DNA of 64,000 bases from an uncultured Lachnospiraceae bacterium. Lineage in GTDB: Bacteria; Bacillota; Clostridia; Lachnospirales; Lachnospiraceae. The notes beneath the pieces were generated by a model. That model did no database searches and was not told the origin of the DNA. It saw only the letters and a program-made list of their open reading frames with translations. A program made the position numbers and the translations under genes. Shown here piece by piece: positions 1,832 to 26,338 of this stretch (the first letter of the stretch is position 1; every line of letters starts with the position of its first letter). Location: NCBI GenBank assembly GCA_902796595.1, contig CADBPM010000110.1, positions 1 to 64,000 on the forward strand. Direction: 5' to 3'.

Positions 1832-3109
1832 ATGGTAAGAGCAATAGTTGGTGCTAACTGGGGCGATGAAGGAAAAGGCAAGATTACAGATATGCTTGCA
1901 GCAGATTCTGATATTGTAGTCAGATTTCAGGGTGGAAGCAATGCAGGTCATACTATAGTCAATCATTATGGTAAATTTGCACTTCACCTTCTTCCTTCCG
2001 GTGTATTCTATGATCATACCACAAGTATACTTGGTAATGGCGTGGCATTGAATATACCTTTTTTTATCAAGGAACTAAATTCCATAACTGAAAAGGGAGT
2101 TCCAAAGCCTCATATTCTTGTTTCAGACAGGGCGCAGGTGCTTATGCCTTACCATATCTTGCTTGATCAGTATGAAGAGGAACGTCTTGGAAAGGCTTCT
2201 TTCGGCTCTACTCAGTCCGGTATAGCGCCATTTTTCTCAGACAAGTATGCAAAGATCGGTATTCAGGTTTCAGAGCTTTTTGATGAAGAAGTTCTTAAGG
2301 ATAAGGTAGAGAAGGCGATTGTAAAGAAGAATGTCCTTATGGAACATTTATACCATAAGCCACTGCTTGATAAGGATGAGATTCTTGAAACTCTTCATGA
2401 ATACAGAGACCTTATAGCTCCTTATGTTGCTGATACAGCTTTATTTATACAGGAGGCTCTTAAGCAGGGCAAGACTGTTCTTCTTGAAGGTCAGCTAGGC
2501 ACTCTCAAGGATCCTGATTTTGGTATCTATCCTATGGTTACATCATCTTCACCTATTGCTGCATATGGTGCGATCGGTGCAGGACTTGCACCATACGAAA
2601 TAAAGGATATAATTACTGTAGTAAAGGCATATTCAAGTGCTGTCGGCGGCGGCGAATTTGTCAGCGAGCTTCATGGAGCAGAGGCAGATGAACTCCGCAA
2701 CAGAGGCGGTGATGGCGGTGAATATGGTGCAACAACAGGAAGACCAAGACGTGTAGGCTGGCTTGATACTGTTGCTTCACGTTACGGTGTAAGAATGCAG
2801 GGAGCTACAGAAGTAGCATTTACTGTACTTGATGTACTTGGATACCTTGATGAGATCCCGGTATGTACAGGTTATGAGATCGATGGCAAGGTAACAGAGG
2901 ACTTCCCTGTTACTGTTAAGCTTAAGAAGGCAAAGCCTGTATATGAGAAACTCCCAGGATGGAAGTGTGATATCCGTGGGATCAAGAAGTATGAGGATCT
3001 TCCTGAAAATTGTAGAAAATATATCGAATTTGCGGAAAAGAAGATAGGAGTACCTATTACTATGATAAGTAATGGTCCTGGCCGCGAGGATATTATCTAT
3101 AGAAAATAA
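1832..3109 (+). CDS. purA: Adenylosuccinate synthetase
   Basis: Catalyses the GTP-dependent joining of IMP and aspartate, the first committed step from IMP to AMP, in the cytosol. The N-terminus shows the GDEGKGK phosphate loop, followed by GSNAGHT. Later come GSTQSGIAP, the IMP-contacting region GGGEFVSEL and the guanine-binding end near ISNGPGR. The length (425 residues) is normal. A GAGAGG ribosome binding site precedes ATG 1832. The partner enzyme purB is in the same window at 54880 but not in the same operon. The gene ends 28 bases before the next reading frame, which suggests co-transcription with the uncharacterised cassette that follows. Confidence 0.96.
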   Translation: MVRAIVGANWGDEGKGKITDMLAADSDIVVRFQGGSNAGHTIVNHYGKFALHLLPSGVFYDHTTSILGNGVALNIPFFIKELNSITEKGVPKPHILVSDRAQVLMPYHILLDQYEEERLGKASFGSTQSGIAPFFSDKYAKIGIQVSELFDEEVLKDKVEKAIVKKNVLMEHLYHKPLLDKDEILETLHEYRDLIAPYVADTALFIQEALKQGKTVLLEGQLGTLKDPDFGIYPMVTSSSPIAAYGAIGAGLAPYEIKDIITVVKAYSSAVGGGEFVSELHGAEADELRNRGGDGGEYGATTGRPRRVGWLDTVASRYGVRMQGATEVAFTVLDVLGYLDEIPVCTGYEIDGKVTEDFPVTVKLKKAKPVYEKLPGWKCDIRGIKKYEDLPENCRKYIEFAEKKIGVPITMISNGPGREDIIYRK

Positions 3110-3137: not shown

Positions 3138-6100
3138 ATGGAACCTAAAATAGCAAACTTCTCAAGAGAATCTTTCAGATACGCTATGCCGCATCTGAAA
3201 GTCTCACCTGCCGGACTTACGATAGATGTCCAGACCGGTAACACTGTTACCGGTTCTTTTCTTCTTGAATCGGAGTCGGGTAAGGATGAGGAAATCAGAG
3301 CATATATAACAGTGCATGACTGCTATATGTCTTTGAATACTGAGTCCTTTGCTGCATCAAAGAAGCTGGTATCATGGATATTTGATGCCGGTACTCTTGC
3401 TGCAGGAACTTCATATAGCGGATATATCTCTGTTATTTCCGACCATGGGGAAACAGAGATTCCTTATAATGTAAATGTTACGGAGAAAAGTGTAATTACA
3501 GACGAAGGCGAGATCTCGGATCTGTTTCAGTTTTCTGCATTTGCAATGAAGCATTTTAACAAGGCTGCTGAAATCTTTTGTGACAATAGCTTTAAGGGAA
3601 TCTTTCTTGAGGGAAAGGAACATGAGAGAAATCTTTGGCAGAGTCTTAGAAATGATCCTGACCACGAACATGCTCTTGATACATTTCTTTGCGCCGACAG
3701 GAAGAAGTTTCCTGTGAGACTTTTTACAGAAAAAAACAGATATGAATTTCACCTTTCAGAAAGACCTATAGAAGATAAGATACTTCTTGAAAAAAGCACA
3801 TGGGGATGGTGTGGTGCAAGGATAAAGACTTATGGTGACTTCATCGAGTGTGAAAAGAATATTATAAATTCCGATGATTTTGATGAAGATACCTGTGAGA
3901 TAAAATTTCAGGTAAATCCGCTTTGTACCAGCGCTGTAAGAGATTCCGGCAAAATAGTGATCGAAAATGCGCTTGACAGGATAGAGATACGGATTGACCT
4001 TATAAATGTAACAAGGAATGATCATTTTTTTCAGACAAAGAAACGTAGATTTCAAAATTATAAAAAGGCTGTTCTAAGCTATGCAAATCTCAAGATGGGT
4101 GAAATAGAGATTGACGAGGCGATGGCTGAGATAAGGTCGTGTCTTTACGGCATAGATCCTGAGGGCAGGGATTCGCTTGGCGAACTTGTTGAAATTTATC
4201 TTGAGGGACTTAGCGGAAAAAAGGACAGTGCGTCAGAAAGATTTCTTGAAGTTGAAAAGAATGGCATAAATATCGGATTGTATGATTTTATCGAATATCT
4301 TCTTACTGAGGATGAAGAGGTAAGAAAAAAAGATATCGATGAGGTATATGATCTTGCATGTACTGGCATAAAATGGCAGGATACATTATTATATATCAAT
4401 ATGGATCGGAAGATAGCGGATGATCCTGCAAGAAAGATTGAGGAGCTTTCCAAGTTATACGATAAAGGCATAAGAAGTCCATTTATCTATATAGACACAC
4501 TCCTTACATTCAGAAATGAAGTGGATGCTTTTAAGAGCTTGGGAGGGCTTGAAAAGCATGCTTTTGCATATGCAGCAAGACATGAATATTTTACAGATCC
4601 GGATCTTGTAGAAAAATATGTTTGTTTTGCCACTGAAATAAAGGAATACGATCCTCTTATCTTAAGCACGCTTTGTTATATATATGATATTTTAACAACT
4701 GAAGAAGTGCTTTTTGCAATAGATACGCAGATAATACTAAGAGGCTATCAGAAGAGAGAAGACCATAAATTTTTAACAGAGGGTGTCAAGGAGGGACTAA
4801 GGATCACCGGAATATATGAGGCATATTTTTCAACATTCAACGCCAAGGAAGAGGAACTTCTTCCGGAAACATTCATGTATTTCAGGTATGATGATCCTGC
4901 CGCAGTAAGTGACAAGGCAAAGTTGTTTGCTTATATAGTTGATCACAAGGATGATGGTGAAAATTACAGATTTTTTGTAAATAGGATCAGAGATTTTGCA
5001 GGAGAAGAACTGAAAAAGGGAAATGTTTCAGATGATCTGATCACCATTTACAGGGATTGTATAAAGGATCATGATTTTCTTTCTGCAAATGCGGAATATC
5101 TTGTAAATGTGCTTTTTAAGGCAAGAATATTTTTAATGGACGGTAATTTTTCAAAGATCAAGGTATTTCCGGATGAACTTAAAGACCCGGATGAATATAT
5201 GCTTCAGGGCAGGATCAACTATGTGGATGTCTATGGTGACGATTCGATCGTAATGCTTGCGGATGACGAGGAAAGGCTGTATCCGCTGGAAAATTGTGGA
5301 GATTTGACTAAGCAGTTTACACCTGCTGCACATCTTGATGAATGTCTGAATTCCGGGAGCAGAGATATCAGGCTTCTTTGCGAGACTGTTTATGAAAGTG
5401 AGAAGCTTCACAGAAATATATCTGATAAGATAGGCGTGTTTACGGATATTCTTAAAAGCAACAGACTTTCAGAGGGCTTTAAGCTTTTCATCGCAGGGAG
5501 GATGATAAACCATTATTATGATACATACGACGGGGTTATGCTTGAAAAGCTTCTTTCTGTGTATGATCTTTATGGCGTAGACAGGAAGGACGGCGAAAAT
5601 CAGGCAAGGCTTATTTTAACCAGAAATATGTATCCTCTTGGGATAAGGGCGGTTAAATACCTTGGACCGGAAAATGTGGAAGCCAAGTTCATCTTAAGGA
5701 TCGTGGAGCAGATGCTTGATGATGAGAAGGGCAGAGACAGTTCTTTTCTTGATGCTATGGCATATTTTCTGATGAAAGAAAAAAAGGCATCAGACAAGGT
5801 ACTGATCTGGCTCAGGGAACATCATGAGGGAAGTCTTACGGAAATGACAGAGCTTTTTGAAATACTGAATGAAAAAGGTCTGATGACGGAGGACTACAGT
5901 GCAAAGCTCATAGAGCAGATTCTTTTTACAGAGGAGTTCCCGGCTATTACAGGAGAAATTTACAAGGCTTATGACCATAAAAGTGATGATATCCTTGCAA
6001 GAGCAATGATAAATTATGTATCATACAGATATCTGCTTCGTGACAGAGAACCTGAAAGTGAGTTTGTTTCTGGGATAAGGGATCTTGCACTTGATGGGAA

Positions 6101-6713
6101 TGACAGGCTTCATGTGCTTACATATCTGAAGATCCTCTCTTCAAAAAATACACTTACAAGCAGCGAACGTGAGTTTACTCTTGTTATGCTTGCAAGGCTT
6201 ACAGAAGAGGGTGTGATCCTGCCGTTTTTTAAGAGATTTATTGGAAAATGCGATGTTCCTGCTGAAATAATAAACAGGACTTTTGTGCTTTTTACAGCAG
6301 ATGAAGAGGCGAATGTTTCAATACATTACAGAACATATACCCGCAGCAGGACTGAAGCTTCTTATACTACTGAATATATGAGAAATATTTATAAGGGACT
6401 GTTTATAAAGGAATTTCTTATTTTTGATGATGAAAATGTTCAGTATTATATAACTATCGATGATGAGGAGGAAAAGTCTGAAAGAGTAGCTGAAAGCGGT
6501 TTGCTTGAATTTTTGCCGTCTGACAGCATGATAGATGATGGAGGAAGCCTGTTTACTCAGCTAAATTCCGTTTTTATAGCTGAAGATTTCAGCGATGGTA
6601 CATCTTTCAAAGAGTATCTGCTTAAATATATAGTTGATAAAAATATGATAGGAGACCTTTTTAAAGTGTCTATGAGTGAAACAGAAGAAACAGGAGATAC
6701 AGGAAATGAGTGA
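3138..6713 (+). CDS. Large cytosolic Ig-like/alpha-solenoid protein, DUF5717-type, function unknown
   Basis: 1191 residues without signal peptide or membrane segment. Residues about 15-120 read as a beta-sandwich: alternating hydrophobic strands, a phrase like SPAGLTIDVQTGNTVTGSF, and a turn near GTSYSGYISV. A second beta-rich domain spans roughly 190-300. Residues 310-1050 are almost entirely amphipathic helices of the TPR/solenoid kind. The C-terminus (about 1060-1190) returns to a compact mixed fold. From memory it matches DUF5717, a Lachnospiraceae family of unknown role. I start at ATG 3138 because upstream codons overlap purA. It overlaps the next gene by 8 bases, so the two are probably translated together. 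A scaffold role for the ATPase-like neighbour is inference. Confidence 0.8.
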   Translation: MEPKIANFSRESFRYAMPHLKVSPAGLTIDVQTGNTVTGSFLLESESGKDEEIRAYITVHDCYMSLNTESFAASKKLVSWIFDAGTLAAGTSYSGYISVISDHGETEIPYNVNVTEKSVITDEGEISDLFQFSAFAMKHFNKAAEIFCDNSFKGIFLEGKEHERNLWQSLRNDPDHEHALDTFLCADRKKFPVRLFTEKNRYEFHLSERPIEDKILLEKSTWGWCGARIKTYGDFIECEKNIINSDDFDEDTCEIKFQVNPLCTSAVRDSGKIVIENALDRIEIRIDLINVTRNDHFFQTKKRRFQNYKKAVLSYANLKMGEIEIDEAMAEIRSCLYGIDPEGRDSLGELVEIYLEGLSGKKDSASERFLEVEKNGINIGLYDFIEYLLTEDEEVRKKDIDEVYDLACTGIKWQDTLLYINMDRKIADDPARKIEELSKLYDKGIRSPFIYIDTLLTFRNEVDAFKSLGGLEKHAFAYAARHEYFTDPDLVEKYVCFATEIKEYDPLILSTLCYIYDILTTEEVLFAIDTQIILRGYQKREDHKFLTEGVKEGLRITGIYEAYFSTFNAKEEELLPETFMYFRYDDPAAVSDKAKLFAYIVDHKDDGENYRFFVNRIRDFAGEELKKGNVSDDLITIYRDCIKDHDFLSANAEYLVNVLFKARIFLMDGNFSKIKVFPDELKDPDEYMLQGRINYVDVYGDDSIVMLADDEERLYPLENCGDLTKQFTPAAHLDECLNSGSRDIRLLCETVYESEKLHRNISDKIGVFTDILKSNRLSEGFKLFIAGRMINHYYDTYDGVMLEKLLSVYDLYGVDRKDGENQARLILTRNMYPLGIRAVKYLGPENVEAKFILRIVEQMLDDEKGRDSSFLDAMAYFLMKEKKASDKVLIWLREHHEGSLTEMTELFEILNEKGLMTEDYSAKLIEQILFTEEFPAITGEIYKAYDHKSDDILARAMINYVSYRYLLRDREPESEFVSGIRDLALDGNDRLHVLTYLKILSSKNTLTSSEREFTLVMLARLTEEGVILPFFKRFIGKCDVPAEIINRTFVLFTADEEANVSIHYRTYTRSRTEASYTTEYMRNIYKGLFIKEFLIFDDENVQYYITIDDEEEKSERVAESGLLEFLPSDSMIDDGGSLFTQLNSVFIAEDFSDGTSFKEYLLKYIVDKNMIGDLFKVSMSETEETGDTGNE

Positions 6714-7965
6714 TGACAGGATTCTTGCAGGCATGGATGTCTGCAGTGACTTTACTCAGATAACTTATTTTTCAAAAAAGACAGCTTCTCCTGAATCATT
6801 GTCTCATGACCAAAGTGAGGAACAGTATCTTATTCCTACAAGGCTTGCACTTAAGCTTGCAAAACATGAATGGATAATAGGTGATGATGTAATTGAAGCT
6901 CTGAATGAAGACACTGAAGATGTTGAAGAAGTGGAAGATCTGTTAAAGAGAGTTGCCGAGGGCAAGATGATAACAGTTGCCGGTGATGAATTTGAGAGCG
7001 GACATATTTTACAGATATTCTTACGCAGGGTCTTTATGGTCCTTAGAAACTATAATCCGTATGCATCAGTAGAGTATGTGGTATTTACATCGGATATAGT
7101 TTCGGAAAACTTTGCAAATGTGCTTCATGATGCTCTTGCCAGATTCGGGATAGATAAAGACAGACATGCTTTTATAAGTCATGAAGAAGCTTTTATAGAT
7201 TATACCATTCATCAGAGAAGAGAAATGTGGATGAATGAAACTGCTCTCTTTGAGATAGGAGACAGTGGTTTAAATGTCAGTTTTCTTTCGATAAGCAAGG
7301 ATACTGATCCTATGGCTGCGGATATTGAAAAAAAGGTATATGATGAGCTTACAACAGATATGGTGAAAAATGACAGGATACGAGCAGCAGGGACTTTCAG
7401 GACTTTGGCAGAGGCTGCGATGCTCGATAAGAATATTTCAACCATATATGCCGTCGGAAGGGGCTTTATTACAGATTTTGCAGACGAGGAGCTCGGAAAC
7501 CTATCAACCGGAAGAAATGTATTCAGAGGACAGAATCTTTTTGCAAAGGGAGCATGTTATCTTGCTCATGCAAAAAGCCGCGGTGAAAATGAAAAATTTA
7601 TCTTTTTTGACGACGAGAGAATAAGAACCGGAATTTCGGTAATGGTTGAAGATAACGGCAGGCAGGCAGAAGCCGTTCTGGTAGAACCTGCAAAACTTTG
7701 GTTTGATGCTGAATGTGATAGAGATATAATAGTTCAGTCTGAGGAAGAGCTTACGTTTCAGAGAAAAGATTTTATCACAAAAAAGGTGGAAAGACGCTTT
7801 ATCTCGCTGGCGGGGCTTGAAGCAGGAATGGACGGACTTACAAGACTTCGGGTATCAGTCAGGTTTGCCAGTCGCGATGTATGTATAATAAGAGTTAAGG
7901 ATATGGGATTTGGAACTTTTGTTCCAACAACCAACAGAGTATGGGAGATAAGATGGGAAAAGTGA
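6706..7965 (+). CDS. Hsp70/actin-fold ATPase-like protein, DUF5716-type, function unknown
   Basis: 419 residues. The N-terminus (ILAGMDVCSDFTQITYFSK) follows the phosphate-1 pattern of Hsp70/actin ATPases. Then come YLIPTRLAL and EWIIGDD, like the early strands of DnaK. Residues about 180-205 (TALFEIGDSGLNVSFLSI) occupy the phosphate-2 place. Residues about 246-256 (IYAVGRGFI) resemble the adenosine motif, followed by an AKGACYLA helix. The last 130 residues are beta-rich, in the place of the Hsp70 substrate-binding domain. Several canonical glycines and threonines are replaced, so ATP hydrolysis is uncertain. ATG 6706 overlaps the upstream stop. From memory it belongs to DUF5716. It may be a dedicated chaperone or a cytoskeletal ATPase. 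Confidence 0.75.
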   Translation: MSDDRILAGMDVCSDFTQITYFSKKTASPESLSHDQSEEQYLIPTRLALKLAKHEWIIGDDVIEALNEDTEDVEEVEDLLKRVAEGKMITVAGDEFESGHILQIFLRRVFMVLRNYNPYASVEYVVFTSDIVSENFANVLHDALARFGIDKDRHAFISHEEAFIDYTIHQRREMWMNETALFEIGDSGLNVSFLSISKDTDPMAADIEKKVYDELTTDMVKNDRIRAAGTFRTLAEAAMLDKNISTIYAVGRGFITDFADEELGNLSTGRNVFRGQNLFAKGACYLAHAKSRGENEKFIFFDDERIRTGISVMVEDNGRQAEAVLVEPAKLWFDAECDRDIIVQSEEELTFQRKDFITKKVERRFISLAGLEAGMDGLTRLRVSVRFASRDVCIIRVKDMGFGTFVPTTNRVWEIRWEK

Positions 7966-8795
7966 TCCTTTGCAAGGGCAGAGTGGCAGAAAAACCATTT
8001 ATAATTCCTTTGAGTGGGCGAGAGCTGTATTCCATTGAAGAAATATGTTATTATGTATACAATAATATATATAGTATAGACATAGGTTTCTTTTCGGATG
8101 AGTTACTGGAATTTATAGAAAAGGACCTTGATCTTCCGGAAATCGCAGATGAATTAAGAGACCTGCTTGAATCGGGACATGTTTTGAGAAATGTTGTTAC
8201 AGCGCTTCTTTTATCATGTGATCTGTATAACAGGAAGGAAACGGAAGAACTGATATTACTTATGAACAGACTTTCCGGCATGAGCGCATGGCAAAAGAGG
8301 GCTCATATCGGATATGAGTTTTTAAGAGAAGGACAATATATAAAAGCACTCAGGCATTTTAGAGGAATTCTTAAATTTGAAGATCTGAACGAAAAAGACT
8401 ATGGCGATGTGCTTTTTGCAATAGGCTGTACGCTAGCACATACAGCAAGCTACAGGGAGGCAGCAGATTGCTTCTACAAGTCATATCTTCATGGCAGGAA
8501 CAGAAAGTCTCTTATTTATACGCTACTGTGTTTTAAACTTGGTGATCTTGGAAAGCAGTTTAATGAGCAGGTGGGAAGCCTTCCAAAGGACGACCCTGCT
8601 GTACTTGAAGCAGAAAAGATCTGGGATGAAGCAAGAAAAAAGGCAGAGGATTCTGTGGAGTACAGAGATGTAAGCAAGCTGCTTGATGGAGTTTCGGGAG
8701 AACATGCAAGGGAATACAGGAGAGGTATTGCAGAAAAACTTCAGGATTTGAAGGAAGAATACAAAAGAGGGGTAGAGAATGGGCCTGTTTCATAG
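7953..8795 (+). CDS. TPR-like hypothetical protein of the DUF5716/DUF5717 cassette
   Basis: 280 residues, soluble, no known catalytic motif. The first 40 residues form a small beta-rich start with a REL-Y-S-I-E-E-I-C-Y-Y-V-Y-N pattern. Residues about 110-215 contain helix pairs spaced like tetratricopeptide repeats, for example the stretch around GQYIKALRHF and SYREAADCFYKSYL. The C-terminus is a charged helix. ATG 7953 has GGGAG 5 bases upstream, better than ATG 7941. It overlaps the preceding gene by 13 bases and the next by 17, so all four genes appear translationally coupled. A role as adaptor between the ATPase-like protein and the membrane partner is inferred. Confidence 0.7.
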   Translation: MGKVILCKGRVAEKPFIIPLSGRELYSIEEICYYVYNNIYSIDIGFFSDELLEFIEKDLDLPEIADELRDLLESGHVLRNVVTALLLSCDLYNRKETEELILLMNRLSGMSAWQKRAHIGYEFLREGQYIKALRHFRGILKFEDLNEKDYGDVLFAIGCTLAHTASYREAADCFYKSYLHGRNRKSLIYTLLCFKLGDLGKQFNEQVGSLPKDDPAVLEAEKIWDEARKKAEDSVEYRDVSKLLDGVSGEHAREYRRGIAEKLQDLKEEYKRGVENGPVS

Positions 8796-9945
8796 AAAAA
8801 AGAAAAAGAATGAGACGGAAGAAAATAAAGAATTCAATGAGGCAGCAGGCATAAAAACTGAAAGTGAGCTCGTTCTTTCAGAAGATAACCATAAGGAATA
8901 CATACGGAGTGCCTGCGAGAGTATTTCAAGAGCCAAAGGCGAGATACTTGCAGCAAAAGAAGAATACAGCGAAGTAAATAATTATCTCAATGATACAGAA
9001 ATGATAGAAGATCTTCCGGACGATAAAGGGGCGGAGTTAAAGGAGACGGCAGACCACATGCTGTCTTTAAAGATCGACCTTGACAGTCTTGATAAAAAGA
9101 AAGCTAATATCTCTCAGTTTCAGTACCAGTCGATCATGAGATATGAAGACGAGATTCCTAAGGGTATTGAAAAAATGAAGAAGGACGAAAATTACCTGAA
9201 TCTCATAAAGGGCGATCTTATGAAGCTTTCTGACGAGCATGAAAAGATCAGTCGTGACACGAAAGAGGAGAATGAGAGAAGGCACTTTCTTCGCAGGTTT
9301 TCAGTATTTGCCAGTGCTGTTATAATTGTAATGCTTATAGTCTACTTCACACTTTATGTTGTATATGAAATAGATCTTACAAATGCCTTTATATTTACTA
9401 TTGGCGGAGCAATGCTCATGATCATCTATCTTTTCTTTGAGTCTGAGCGAAATAAAAAGGCTATACAGCTTAATGCCGCAAAGATGAAGAAACTTGTAAA
9501 CCTTACAAATACTGTAAAGATAAAATATGTCAATCAGGCAAATGCAGTTGATTTTGTAAGAGATAAGTATAATGTAAATTCTGCAGATGAACTGGAGTAT
9601 CTTTGGGGCGAATATGTTCAGATGAAGGATGATGAAGGAAAAAAGAGAAAGACAAGTGCTACGTATGATTTTTATTCATCAAAACTTACAGATATACTTA
9701 AAGAGGCGAGGATAAATGATCCTGATATCTGGCTCTATCAGGTAAATGCGATAGTTGATCACAAGGAAATGGTAGAGATAAGGCACAGGTTAAATGTAAG
9801 AAGACAGAAAATAAGAGAGACAATAGAATTAAATACCAAGCTTATTGAGGCGGAGACAGCAAAGATTCATAAGTTCAGGAGTGATTTTCCAGATGAAAAG
9901 GGACTTGTGAATACGATGATGGACACATATAGAATATTAGTCTGA
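8779..9945 (+). CDS. Coiled-coil protein with a two-helix membrane hairpin, function unknown
   Basis: 388 residues. The N-terminus is strongly basic (MGLFHRKKKKN) and then acidic. Residues about 40-165 are heptad-rich helix. Two hydrophobic segments follow at about 174-195 and 203-219, separated by a short acidic loop. The remaining 170 residues are again charged helix, so both ends should lie in the cytoplasm. It is the last gene of the four-gene cassette and overlaps its predecessor by 17 bases. aroC follows 12 bases after the stop. I know no named family; it plausibly anchors the other three soluble products at the membrane. Confidence 0.7.
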   Translation: MGLFHRKKKKNETEENKEFNEAAGIKTESELVLSEDNHKEYIRSACESISRAKGEILAAKEEYSEVNNYLNDTEMIEDLPDDKGAELKETADHMLSLKIDLDSLDKKKANISQFQYQSIMRYEDEIPKGIEKMKKDENYLNLIKGDLMKLSDEHEKISRDTKEENERRHFLRRFSVFASAVIIVMLIVYFTLYVVYEIDLTNAFIFTIGGAMLMIIYLFFESERNKKAIQLNAAKMKKLVNLTNTVKIKYVNQANAVDFVRDKYNVNSADELEYLWGEYVQMKDDEGKKRKTSATYDFYSSKLTDILKEARINDPDIWLYQVNAIVDHKEMVEIRHRLNVRRQKIRETIELNTKLIEAETAKIHKFRSDFPDEKGLVNTMMDTYRILV

Positions 9946-9957
9946 CAGGAGGGGGAA

Positions 9958-11088
9958 ATGCCTGGATCGGAATTTGGTACGTTGTTTCATGTTAGCACTT
10001 TTGGTGAATCACATGGATGTGGGCTTGGAGTTGTGATAGATGGATGTCCTGCAGGACTTTCTCTTAGTGTGGATGATATCATGCCTTATATGAGGAGAAG
10101 AAAACCGGGGCAGGGCGCTTTCACAACTGCAAGAAATGAGGGAGATGAAGTAGAGATCTTGTCGGGGGTTTTTGAGGAAAAGACACTTGGAACACCGATC
10201 GCTCTGCTTGTAAGAAATAAGGATCAGCATTCATCTGATTACGGGAATATAAAAGATATATACAGACCGGGTCATGCGGATATGACCTTTGACAAAAAGT
10301 ACGGTATCAGAGACTACAGAGGTGGTGGGCGGTCAAGCGGCAGAGAGACGCTTGCCAGAGTTGCAGCCGGCGCAGTTGCAGCAAAGCTTTTATCAGAATT
10401 TGGTATTGATGTTATATCTTTTACAAGAAGCATCGGAGAGGTTGAAATAGACGAGAGATACTTGAATCCTTTGGAAAATAAAGTGAGCAGGGATAAAGTG
10501 ATGCAAAGCCCGCTCTACATGCCGGATGAGGATGCAAGTGCCAAAGCAATGAAACTTATCGGCGAGTACAGGAGAAACAAGGATTCTGTAGGCGGCGTGG
10601 TTGAGATACATGCGACAGGGCTTCCGGTGGGACTTGGAGAGACAGTTTTTGAAAAAATAGATGCAAGACTTTCGGCTGCTCTTTTTTCTGTCGGGGCTGT
10701 CAAGGCGGTTGAGATAGGAGACGGTATAAAGTCAAGTTTCTATGCAGGCAGTGAAAATAATGACGGTATGACGAATCTCTTTGGTGATATCTCAAAGACG
10801 TCGAATCATGCCGGAGGATGTCTTGGTGGTATGACTGATGGAAGTATGTTGGTAGCAAGAGCATATTTTAAACCGACACCATCCATAGCTCAGACTCAGC
10901 TTACAGTTGATAAAAACGGCAATGATGTTTCCATAAATATAAAGGGCAGGCACGATCCGGTAATAGTACCGCGCGCAGTTGTTGTTACCGAAGCCATGGC
11001 AGATCTTGTTTTAGCGGATCTGCTCATGCAGAATGCAGTTAGCAGGCTTGACAACCTGAAAAAAATATATACAGAACAGGGAGAATAA
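9958..11088 (+). CDS. aroC: Chorismate synthase
   Basis: Converts 5-enolpyruvylshikimate-3-phosphate to chorismate, the last common step of aromatic amino-acid synthesis, using reduced flavin. Family signatures visible are the start FGTLFHVSTFGESHG, the central DYRGGGRSSGRETLARVAAGA and the late DGMTNLFGD-like flavin region. 376 residues is the usual length. A strong AGGAGGGGG lies just ahead of ATG 9958. It follows the uncharacterised cassette by 12 bases and precedes the aminopeptidase gene by one base, so it is probably in the same transcript. No other shikimate gene is in the window. Confidence 0.95.
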   Translation: MPGSEFGTLFHVSTFGESHGCGLGVVIDGCPAGLSLSVDDIMPYMRRRKPGQGAFTTARNEGDEVEILSGVFEEKTLGTPIALLVRNKDQHSSDYGNIKDIYRPGHADMTFDKKYGIRDYRGGGRSSGRETLARVAAGAVAAKLLSEFGIDVISFTRSIGEVEIDERYLNPLENKVSRDKVMQSPLYMPDEDASAKAMKLIGEYRRNKDSVGGVVEIHATGLPVGLGETVFEKIDARLSAALFSVGAVKAVEIGDGIKSSFYAGSENNDGMTNLFGDISKTSNHAGGCLGGMTDGSMLVARAYFKPTPSIAQTQLTVDKNGNDVSINIKGRHDPVIVPRAVVVTEAMADLVLADLLMQNAVSRLDNLKKIYTEQGE

Positions 11089-26078: not shown

Positions 26079-26087
26079 GATATTTAA

Positions 26088-26338
26088 CGACTATGAAGGG
26101 AAGAAGTAGCCTGTATATGTACCAACAGAGAGTTGCCGGAAGGTGAGAGGCGCAGGAAAGTTGCAGGTGAATACATCCTGGAGTCCCGCACCGAACGGTA
26201 TCAAGTAGGCTGTGGCGGGTATGCCCGTTATAGCGGTGGAAAGCAAGGCTTTCTGTTGAGGTGAGATTTTTCTCATGAATTAAGGTGGTAACACGGAGCC
26301 CATCCCTTCGTCCTTAAAGACAGGGGGTGGGCTATATT
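26088..26338 (+). promoter_or_regulatory. T-box riboswitch, tyrosine specifier
   Basis: The hallmark T-box sequence AAGGTGGTAACACGG lies at 26282-26296. Stem I contains GAATAC, whose TAC (26172-26174) is the tyrosine codon that pairs with uncharged tRNA-Tyr. Behind the T-box, AGCCCATCCC and GGGGGTGGGCT form the terminator stem (about 26296-26334), which competes with the antiterminator. The specifier agrees with the gene downstream. Low charged tRNA-Tyr should therefore raise tyrS expression. Confidence 0.95.

Follow-up and report, generated by a model that had tools for sequence, protein, structure and literature searches.

A reduced DUF5716/DUF5717 cassette of Lachnospiraceae and its origin in a multi-Hsp70 operon

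The four-gene cassette (genes A to D) that begins at position 3138 of the window, by which we mean the whole 64,000-nucleotide stretch of DNA analysed here, is with high confidence what remains of an operon encoding several Hsp70s. Computation shows that the DUF5716 gene B is of Hsp70 ancestry, has lost its nucleotide chemistry and has kept its SBD-β, that it stays linked to genes A and C, and that the other Hsp70s have been lost. We give a probability of roughly one half to a fuller reading, in which the cassette is a reduced, ATP-free remnant of a multi-Hsp70 machine and B would be a scaffold-bound peptide binder resembling Ssz1. The mechanistic part of this reading, ATP-independent peptide binding by scaffold-bound B, is drawn by analogy and we put it forward tentatively, at less than even odds.

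The cassette and its genomic setting

We confirmed four ORFs in the window (Table 1) overlapping by 8 bp (A/B), 13 bp (B/C) and 17 bp (C/D), recovering the coordinates and overlaps given in an earlier note on this DNA. That note had also named the first two genes as DUF5717 and DUF5716, and both assignments hold above the curated Pfam cut-offs. Gene A matches PF18984 (DUF5717_N; E 1.3e-159, 533.3 bits against a cut-off of 25) and PF18983 (DUF5717_C; E 6.8e-54, 183.5 bits against 25), and gene B matches PF18980 (DUF5716_C; E 3.9e-78, 262.9 bits against 34.7). A and B are thus full members of Pfam families that carry no function.

Gene A is predicted to encode a PapD/ASH-like Ig domain at its N-terminus and then a long helical solenoid, in keeping with the solenoid scaffold proposed earlier. 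AlphaFold2 modelled residues 1-338 with a pLDDT of 61 (about 70 over the Ig domain), and the best Foldseek matches of the Ig domain were HYDIN, the SPD-2 domain of CEP192 and SbsC. The products of C and D match no Pfam family above cut-off. C aligns with a TPR protein (393 aa) from the larger operon described below (TPR_2 2.2e-21 in that protein), which supports its earlier description as TPR-like. D has hydrophobic segments at residues 169-201 and 198-222, and such adjacent pairs recur in all 26 family D proteins examined; its description as a coiled-coil protein with a two-helix membrane hairpin is retained here as that of a predicted membrane protein.

Table 1. Features of the cassette and its neighbours in the window
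Feature	Position	Strand	Basis or remark
purA, upstream neighbour, 28 bp 5′ of gene A	1832..3109	+	Lineage-specific, outside the conserved unit
Gene A, DUF5717 protein, 1191 aa	3138..6713	+	PF18984 and PF18983; predicted scaffold
Ig-like (PapD/ASH-type) domain of gene A, residues ~19-126	3192..3515	+	AlphaFold2 and Foldseek; low-to-moderate confidence
Gene B, 419-aa DUF5716 protein, a pseudo-Hsp70 (degenerate, lidless)	6706..7965	+	hhalign, tree, catalytic residues lost
Eroded NBD of B, residues 1-298	6706..7599	+	Phosphate-1/-2, Lys/Glu/Thr and subdomain IIB lost
SBD-β-like domain of B, residues 299-419, no alpha lid	7600..7962	+	Structural match
Gene C, 280-aa TPR-type adaptor, own conserved N-terminal domain	7953..8795	+	Alignment with full-operon TPR protein
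Gene D, 388-aa coiled-coil protein, two-helix membrane hairpin	8779..9945	+	Hydropathy; in several relatives a homologue is the last gene of the full operon
Membrane hairpin of D, residues ~169-222	9283..9444	+	Hydropathy
aroC, downstream neighbour, 12 bp 3′ of gene D	9958..11088	+	Lineage-specific

In the window's family, which by its size and Pfam taxonomy is most likely Lachnospiraceae, DUF5716 occurs in 293/299 genomes, nearly always in single copy, and was confined to that family in a phylum sample of 398 (which included one other genome of the order). DUF5717_N was found in 94 of 196 genomes of the order; outside the order, a phylum sample of 348 held none above the cut-off and a class sample of 291 gave one sub-threshold match only. 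A gene-neighbourhood survey bore out the adjacency seen in the window: A, B and C are contiguous and co-directional in 61/61 family loci, with median gaps of 16 and -4 bp, a figure that may be lower in divergent members because most of the loci had been picked for a high DUF5716 score. D follows A-B-C in 26 of these loci and is missing in 35.

The same loci define the setting of the cassette. An aminotransferase-like gene (AT) lies upstream in 32 of the 61 and valS downstream in 7. The purA and aroC flanks on which the earlier note remarked are present in the window but do not form a conserved context (8/61 and 2/61, respectively), and we rejected purA-aroC as the conserved setting. The suggestion that the cassette is core rather than mobile agrees with its distribution and gene order and with a plasmid search, which returned no match to it. 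A mobile-element or phage origin was also rejected. We found no relatives of the cassette in viral contigs; five phage-database matches came from human faecal samples, and the three inspected (L129, L130 and L131; GenBank MT835486, MT835988 and MT835719), filed as 'Bacteriophage sp.', carry A-B-C-D, one of them with valS, and so look like bacterial DNA. A back-translated peptide search of named genomes gave one related locus. No CIRCE or CtsR operator was found upstream of the cassette, the best CIRCE match having 6/18 mismatches, and heat-shock control by HrcA/CtsR was rejected.

Judged from sequence identities, the cassette evolves fast although it is near-universal in the family. Identity to the relative L006 is 91% for purA, about 64% for C and for aroC, 53.6% for B, 51.9% for D and 41.5% for A. 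Two genomes depart from the usual arrangement: G543 (68% complete; L200) has gene A without an adjoining B, and G847 (L199), which is classified in a different family of the order, has a reduced A-B-C that nests in the window's family in both trees, for which transfer, misbinning or classification are alternative explanations. Elsewhere in the window, a T-box leader is located at 26084-26318 (Rfam RF00230, 114.7 bits).

Hsp70 ancestry of gene B and the full operon of sister families

Using hhalign, we matched B to Hsp70s, including the DnaK of the window's own genome, at 99.4% (E 1.5e-21; columns 3-418 against 19-520), a match that covers the whole length of the protein, NBD and SBD-β alike. 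A direct phmmer search of the gene B product against solved structures gave no match and a family profile was needed; the family DUF5716 profile matched DnaK alone (E 7e-4). This DnaK-only result among solved structures is also what bears on a closer kinship with the actin-like ATPases MreB, PilM and FtsA, the NBD model being too poor to compare folds. The Hsp70/actin relationship that the earlier note had seen in this protein is read here as Hsp70 descent.

Other families of the order carry an eight- to nine-gene operon containing relatives of the cassette, in the order A(N)-A(C)-Hsp70-1-GrpE-like-Hsp70-2-Hsp70-3-Hsp70-4-C-D. The split A genes encode about 400 and 900 aa, followed by Hsp70-1 (~559 aa), Hsp70-2 (412-535 aa), Hsp70-3 (~546 aa), Hsp70-4 with its vWA domain (~692-725 aa) and the TPR protein C (~387 aa); the GrpE-like protein mostly has 560-645 aa. 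In one complete copy (L088), Pfam recognizes HSP70 in Hsp70-1 (1.8e-77), GrpE at residues 510-642 of the GrpE-like protein (1.4e-14), HSP70 together with DUF5716_C in both Hsp70-2 (1.9e-16 and 1.8e-25) and Hsp70-3 (2.5e-57 and 1.2e-10), HSP70 (2.5e-95) and VWA in Hsp70-4, and TPR in gene C (2.2e-21). The SBD-α lid is absent from all operon Hsp70s, and in Hsp70-4 the vWA domain stands in its place. The ancestral flanks are a CobD/HisC-like aminotransferase and valS; as AT and valS flanks are common to the full operon and the loci of the window's family, the two occupy the same chromosomal site.

Trees built with FastTree nest the family's DUF5716 within the position-2 Hsp70s. Position 3 is the sister group of these, the clade of position 2, position 3 and the family having support 1.0, and G694, a carrier of the full operon, is the closest sister lineage of the family. 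This placement was repeated in a second tree, and the gene A tree agrees (0.996). The family DUF5716 profile ranks the position-2 Hsp70s top (up to 333.8 bits), position 3 next (about 100) and then positions 1 and 4. On the strength of these profiles and trees, we take DUF5716 to be orthologous to Hsp70-2, the degenerate member of the full operon's Hsp70 set.

The canonical Hsp70s of positions 1, 3 and 4 are missing from the window's family, as is the GrpE-like gene. Position 3 diverged before the family did, so its absence there is best read as loss. A search of the window's genome for Hsp70-type proteins found dnaK and an MreB-type match only, and GrpE genes number two in 9/9 full-operon relatives tested and one above cut-off in each of 21 genomes of the window's family. 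Computation shows that the family's ancestor possessed four Hsp70 paralogues, one of them by then catalytically dead and one fused to vWA, alongside a DUF5717 scaffold, a giant GrpE-like exchange factor, and TPR and membrane coiled-coil proteins.

Several relatives differ in detail. DUF5717 is a single gene in the window's family and usually two adjacent genes elsewhere in the order; it is fused again (1326-1329 aa) in some relatives among L086-L101, a case of gene fusion or fission inside a single Pfam model. G694 (L086) has the full set with a GrpE-like protein of 279 aa, and its TPR gene and vWA-type Hsp70 gene are each split in two; this suggests a lineage partway through decay, unless assembly errors are the cause. 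In G871 the operon is dispersed, with Hsp70 and GrpE-like members still present. At L171:900-6892 in that genome, the GrpE-like gene and the degenerate Hsp70 face, in convergent orientation, genes for GAP1-N2 and a double GTPase; the adjacency is not repeated in other genomes of its family, where GAP1-N2 lies elsewhere.

Erosion of gene B

Residue losses in B were scored on 22 aligned family members at ten sites in E. coli DnaK numbering (D8, T11, T12, K70, E171, D194, G196, G197, T199 and D201). K70, E171 and T199 are replaced in 22/22, and the phosphate-1 and phosphate-2 loops are lost along with these catalytic Lys, Glu and Thr residues. In the B protein of the window, D11 is kept, and S14/D15, L80, H159, G185-D-S-G188 and N190 stand in place of T11/T12, K70, E171, the GGGT loop and D201 of DnaK. 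K70, T12, E171, T199 and D201 are gone in all or nearly all of position 2 and the family; the Hsp70s of positions 1, 3 and 4 retain the DnaK residue at all ten sites wherever their sequence covers them. The fold claimed for B in the earlier note is right, but the Hsp70/actin phosphate and adenosine motifs that it names are eroded.

Subdomain IIB is the DnaK lobe on which GrpE acts. In the family, a median of 34.5 of 105 residues is left across DnaK 186-290, about 70 having been lost, and the position-2 Hsp70s of the full operon retain this subdomain. Decay looks stepwise, with catalytic residues apparently going first and subdomain IIB later. As the family has neither subdomain IIB nor the GrpE-like gene, the two losses coincide. 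B also lacks the SBD-α lid, with a median of 5.5 residues after SBD-β compared to 144 in DnaK.

AlphaFold2, run on B from a two-sequence alignment, gave a pLDDT of 41.9 overall and about 70 over residues 299-419, and left the NBD unresolved; because this half of the model is poor, any residual nucleotide binding is judged from sequence. Residues 299-419 match the SBD-β of BiP (Z 9.6, rmsd 2.9, 103 residues), DnaK (Z 9.2) and Ssz1 (Z 8.5; structure 6sr6 is among the matches), and in the model SBD-β is the best-kept fold of B. DUF5716 identity within the family is mostly 20-30%, and R380, D399, G401 and G403 of B are invariant in the family alignment.

A possible ATP-free peptide binder and its alternatives

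We propose that, once the dedicated Hsp70s and the GrpE-like gene had been lost, the retained A and C would hold B as a scaffold, as their gene order suggests. Where D is kept, in under half of loci, it would anchor this complex at the membrane's inner face. The membrane-anchored assembly envisaged earlier stands to the extent that D is a predicted membrane protein; with D missing from most of the loci surveyed, anchoring is not universal and the membrane step cannot be general. As in Ssz1, the lidless SBD-β of B, assumed by analogy to bind peptide, would engage segments of clients or partners weakly, with rapid exchange and no need of ATP. B may keep hold of clients or place them ready for a partner acting downstream, possibly the housekeeping DnaK. 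Interaction among A, B, C and D is suggested by gene order only.

The model for this proposal is yeast Ssz1 of the ribosome-associated complex, which has no lid and does not hydrolyse ATP, yet is an active low-affinity chaperone that binds substrate via its SBD-β (PMC7083937). B is likewise lidless and, by its residues, non-hydrolysing. In contrast to B, Ssz1 retains ATP binding and a J-protein partner; B has lost subdomain IIB, and Pfam finds no J-domain partner in the four cassette proteins or the full operon.

Compared to the Hsp70/DnaK (PF00012) and GrpE (PF01025) families, B is a divergent Hsp70 without catalytic residues, subdomain IIB or lid; the ancestral operon combines canonical Hsp70s with a GrpE-domain protein, and differs in that all its Hsp70s are lidless, one bearing vWA instead, and in the 560-645 aa length of the GrpE-like protein in most genomes. 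The domains are all known, but as Hsp70/GrpE systems both the machine and the de-energised remnant seem to be new. A literature search, with most subscription journals outside its scope, found no description of DUF5716, DUF5717 or such an operon, and the Hsp70 origin of DUF5716 and the wider operon are apparently undescribed. We think it fairly probable that they represent a hitherto undescribed chaperone class, widespread in the order, of four tandem lidless Hsp70s (one dead everywhere, one with vWA), driven by a giant GrpE-like factor and carried on a DUF5717 scaffold; the largest family of the order would have reduced it to a de-energised, near-universal core of dead Hsp70 and scaffold. Two function-less families found in almost all members of a major gut family gain an identity here, as Hsp70 descendant and scaffold, and their unknowns become testable because they are tied to an operon with recognisable biochemistry. 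The cassette is a clear natural case of an Hsp70 machine that kept a non-catalytic subunit while its ATPases, the gene for its exchange factor and, in the surviving Hsp70, the exchange lobe were lost together. It can serve to test how Hsp70-type complexes act when ATP is not used.

B might instead be a building block that binds no clients, with A-B-C-D forming a membrane-associated structural or positioning complex comparable to those of the actin-fold proteins PilM or FtsA. The complete loss of nucleotide chemistry, the fast divergence within the family, the PapD/ASH-like domain of A and the membrane hairpin of D all fit such a role. However, the best-kept fold is the client-binding SBD-β with its four invariant residues, and DnaK is the sole profile match among solved structures, so we consider a purely structural role rather unlikely. 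Less probable still is that B serves as an adaptor or co-chaperone of the housekeeping DnaK, which would replace the lost canonical Hsp70s while A and C bring clients. A, B and C were kept when the dedicated Hsp70s and GrpE-like gene went, dnaK and grpE are still in the genome, and Ssz1 itself cooperates with the canonical Hsp70 Ssb (PMC7083937), but the four proteins contain no J-domain or known DnaK-binding motif and the upstream region has no CIRCE or CtsR site.

The active, ATP-driven Hsp70/actin-like chaperone of the earlier note draws on an Hsp70 homology that does span the NBD. With nucleotide-binding and catalytic residues (K70, E171 and T199 among them), both phosphate loops and the exchange lobe, subdomain IIB, gone in all 22 aligned members, we regard it as very improbable. 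A defence or conflict role is hardly credible, even though the parts list (Hsp70, GrpE, Ig/FNIII and TPR, vWA) resembles that of the GAP1-N2 GTPase systems, which use HSP70, GrpE and FNIII/TPR proteins (Kaur et al. 2020, PMC7159879). Unlike those systems, which are defined by a GAP1-N2 protein and a TRAFAC GTPase, the operon here is conserved without a GTPase or GAP1. PADLOC gave no match to a known defence system, and GAP1-N2 is absent from the window's genome and from 14/15 full-operon genomes first tested; where present, it lies apart from the operon genes except in one genome (G871). The cassette, for its part, occupies a fixed chromosomal site and is inherited vertically and near-universally.
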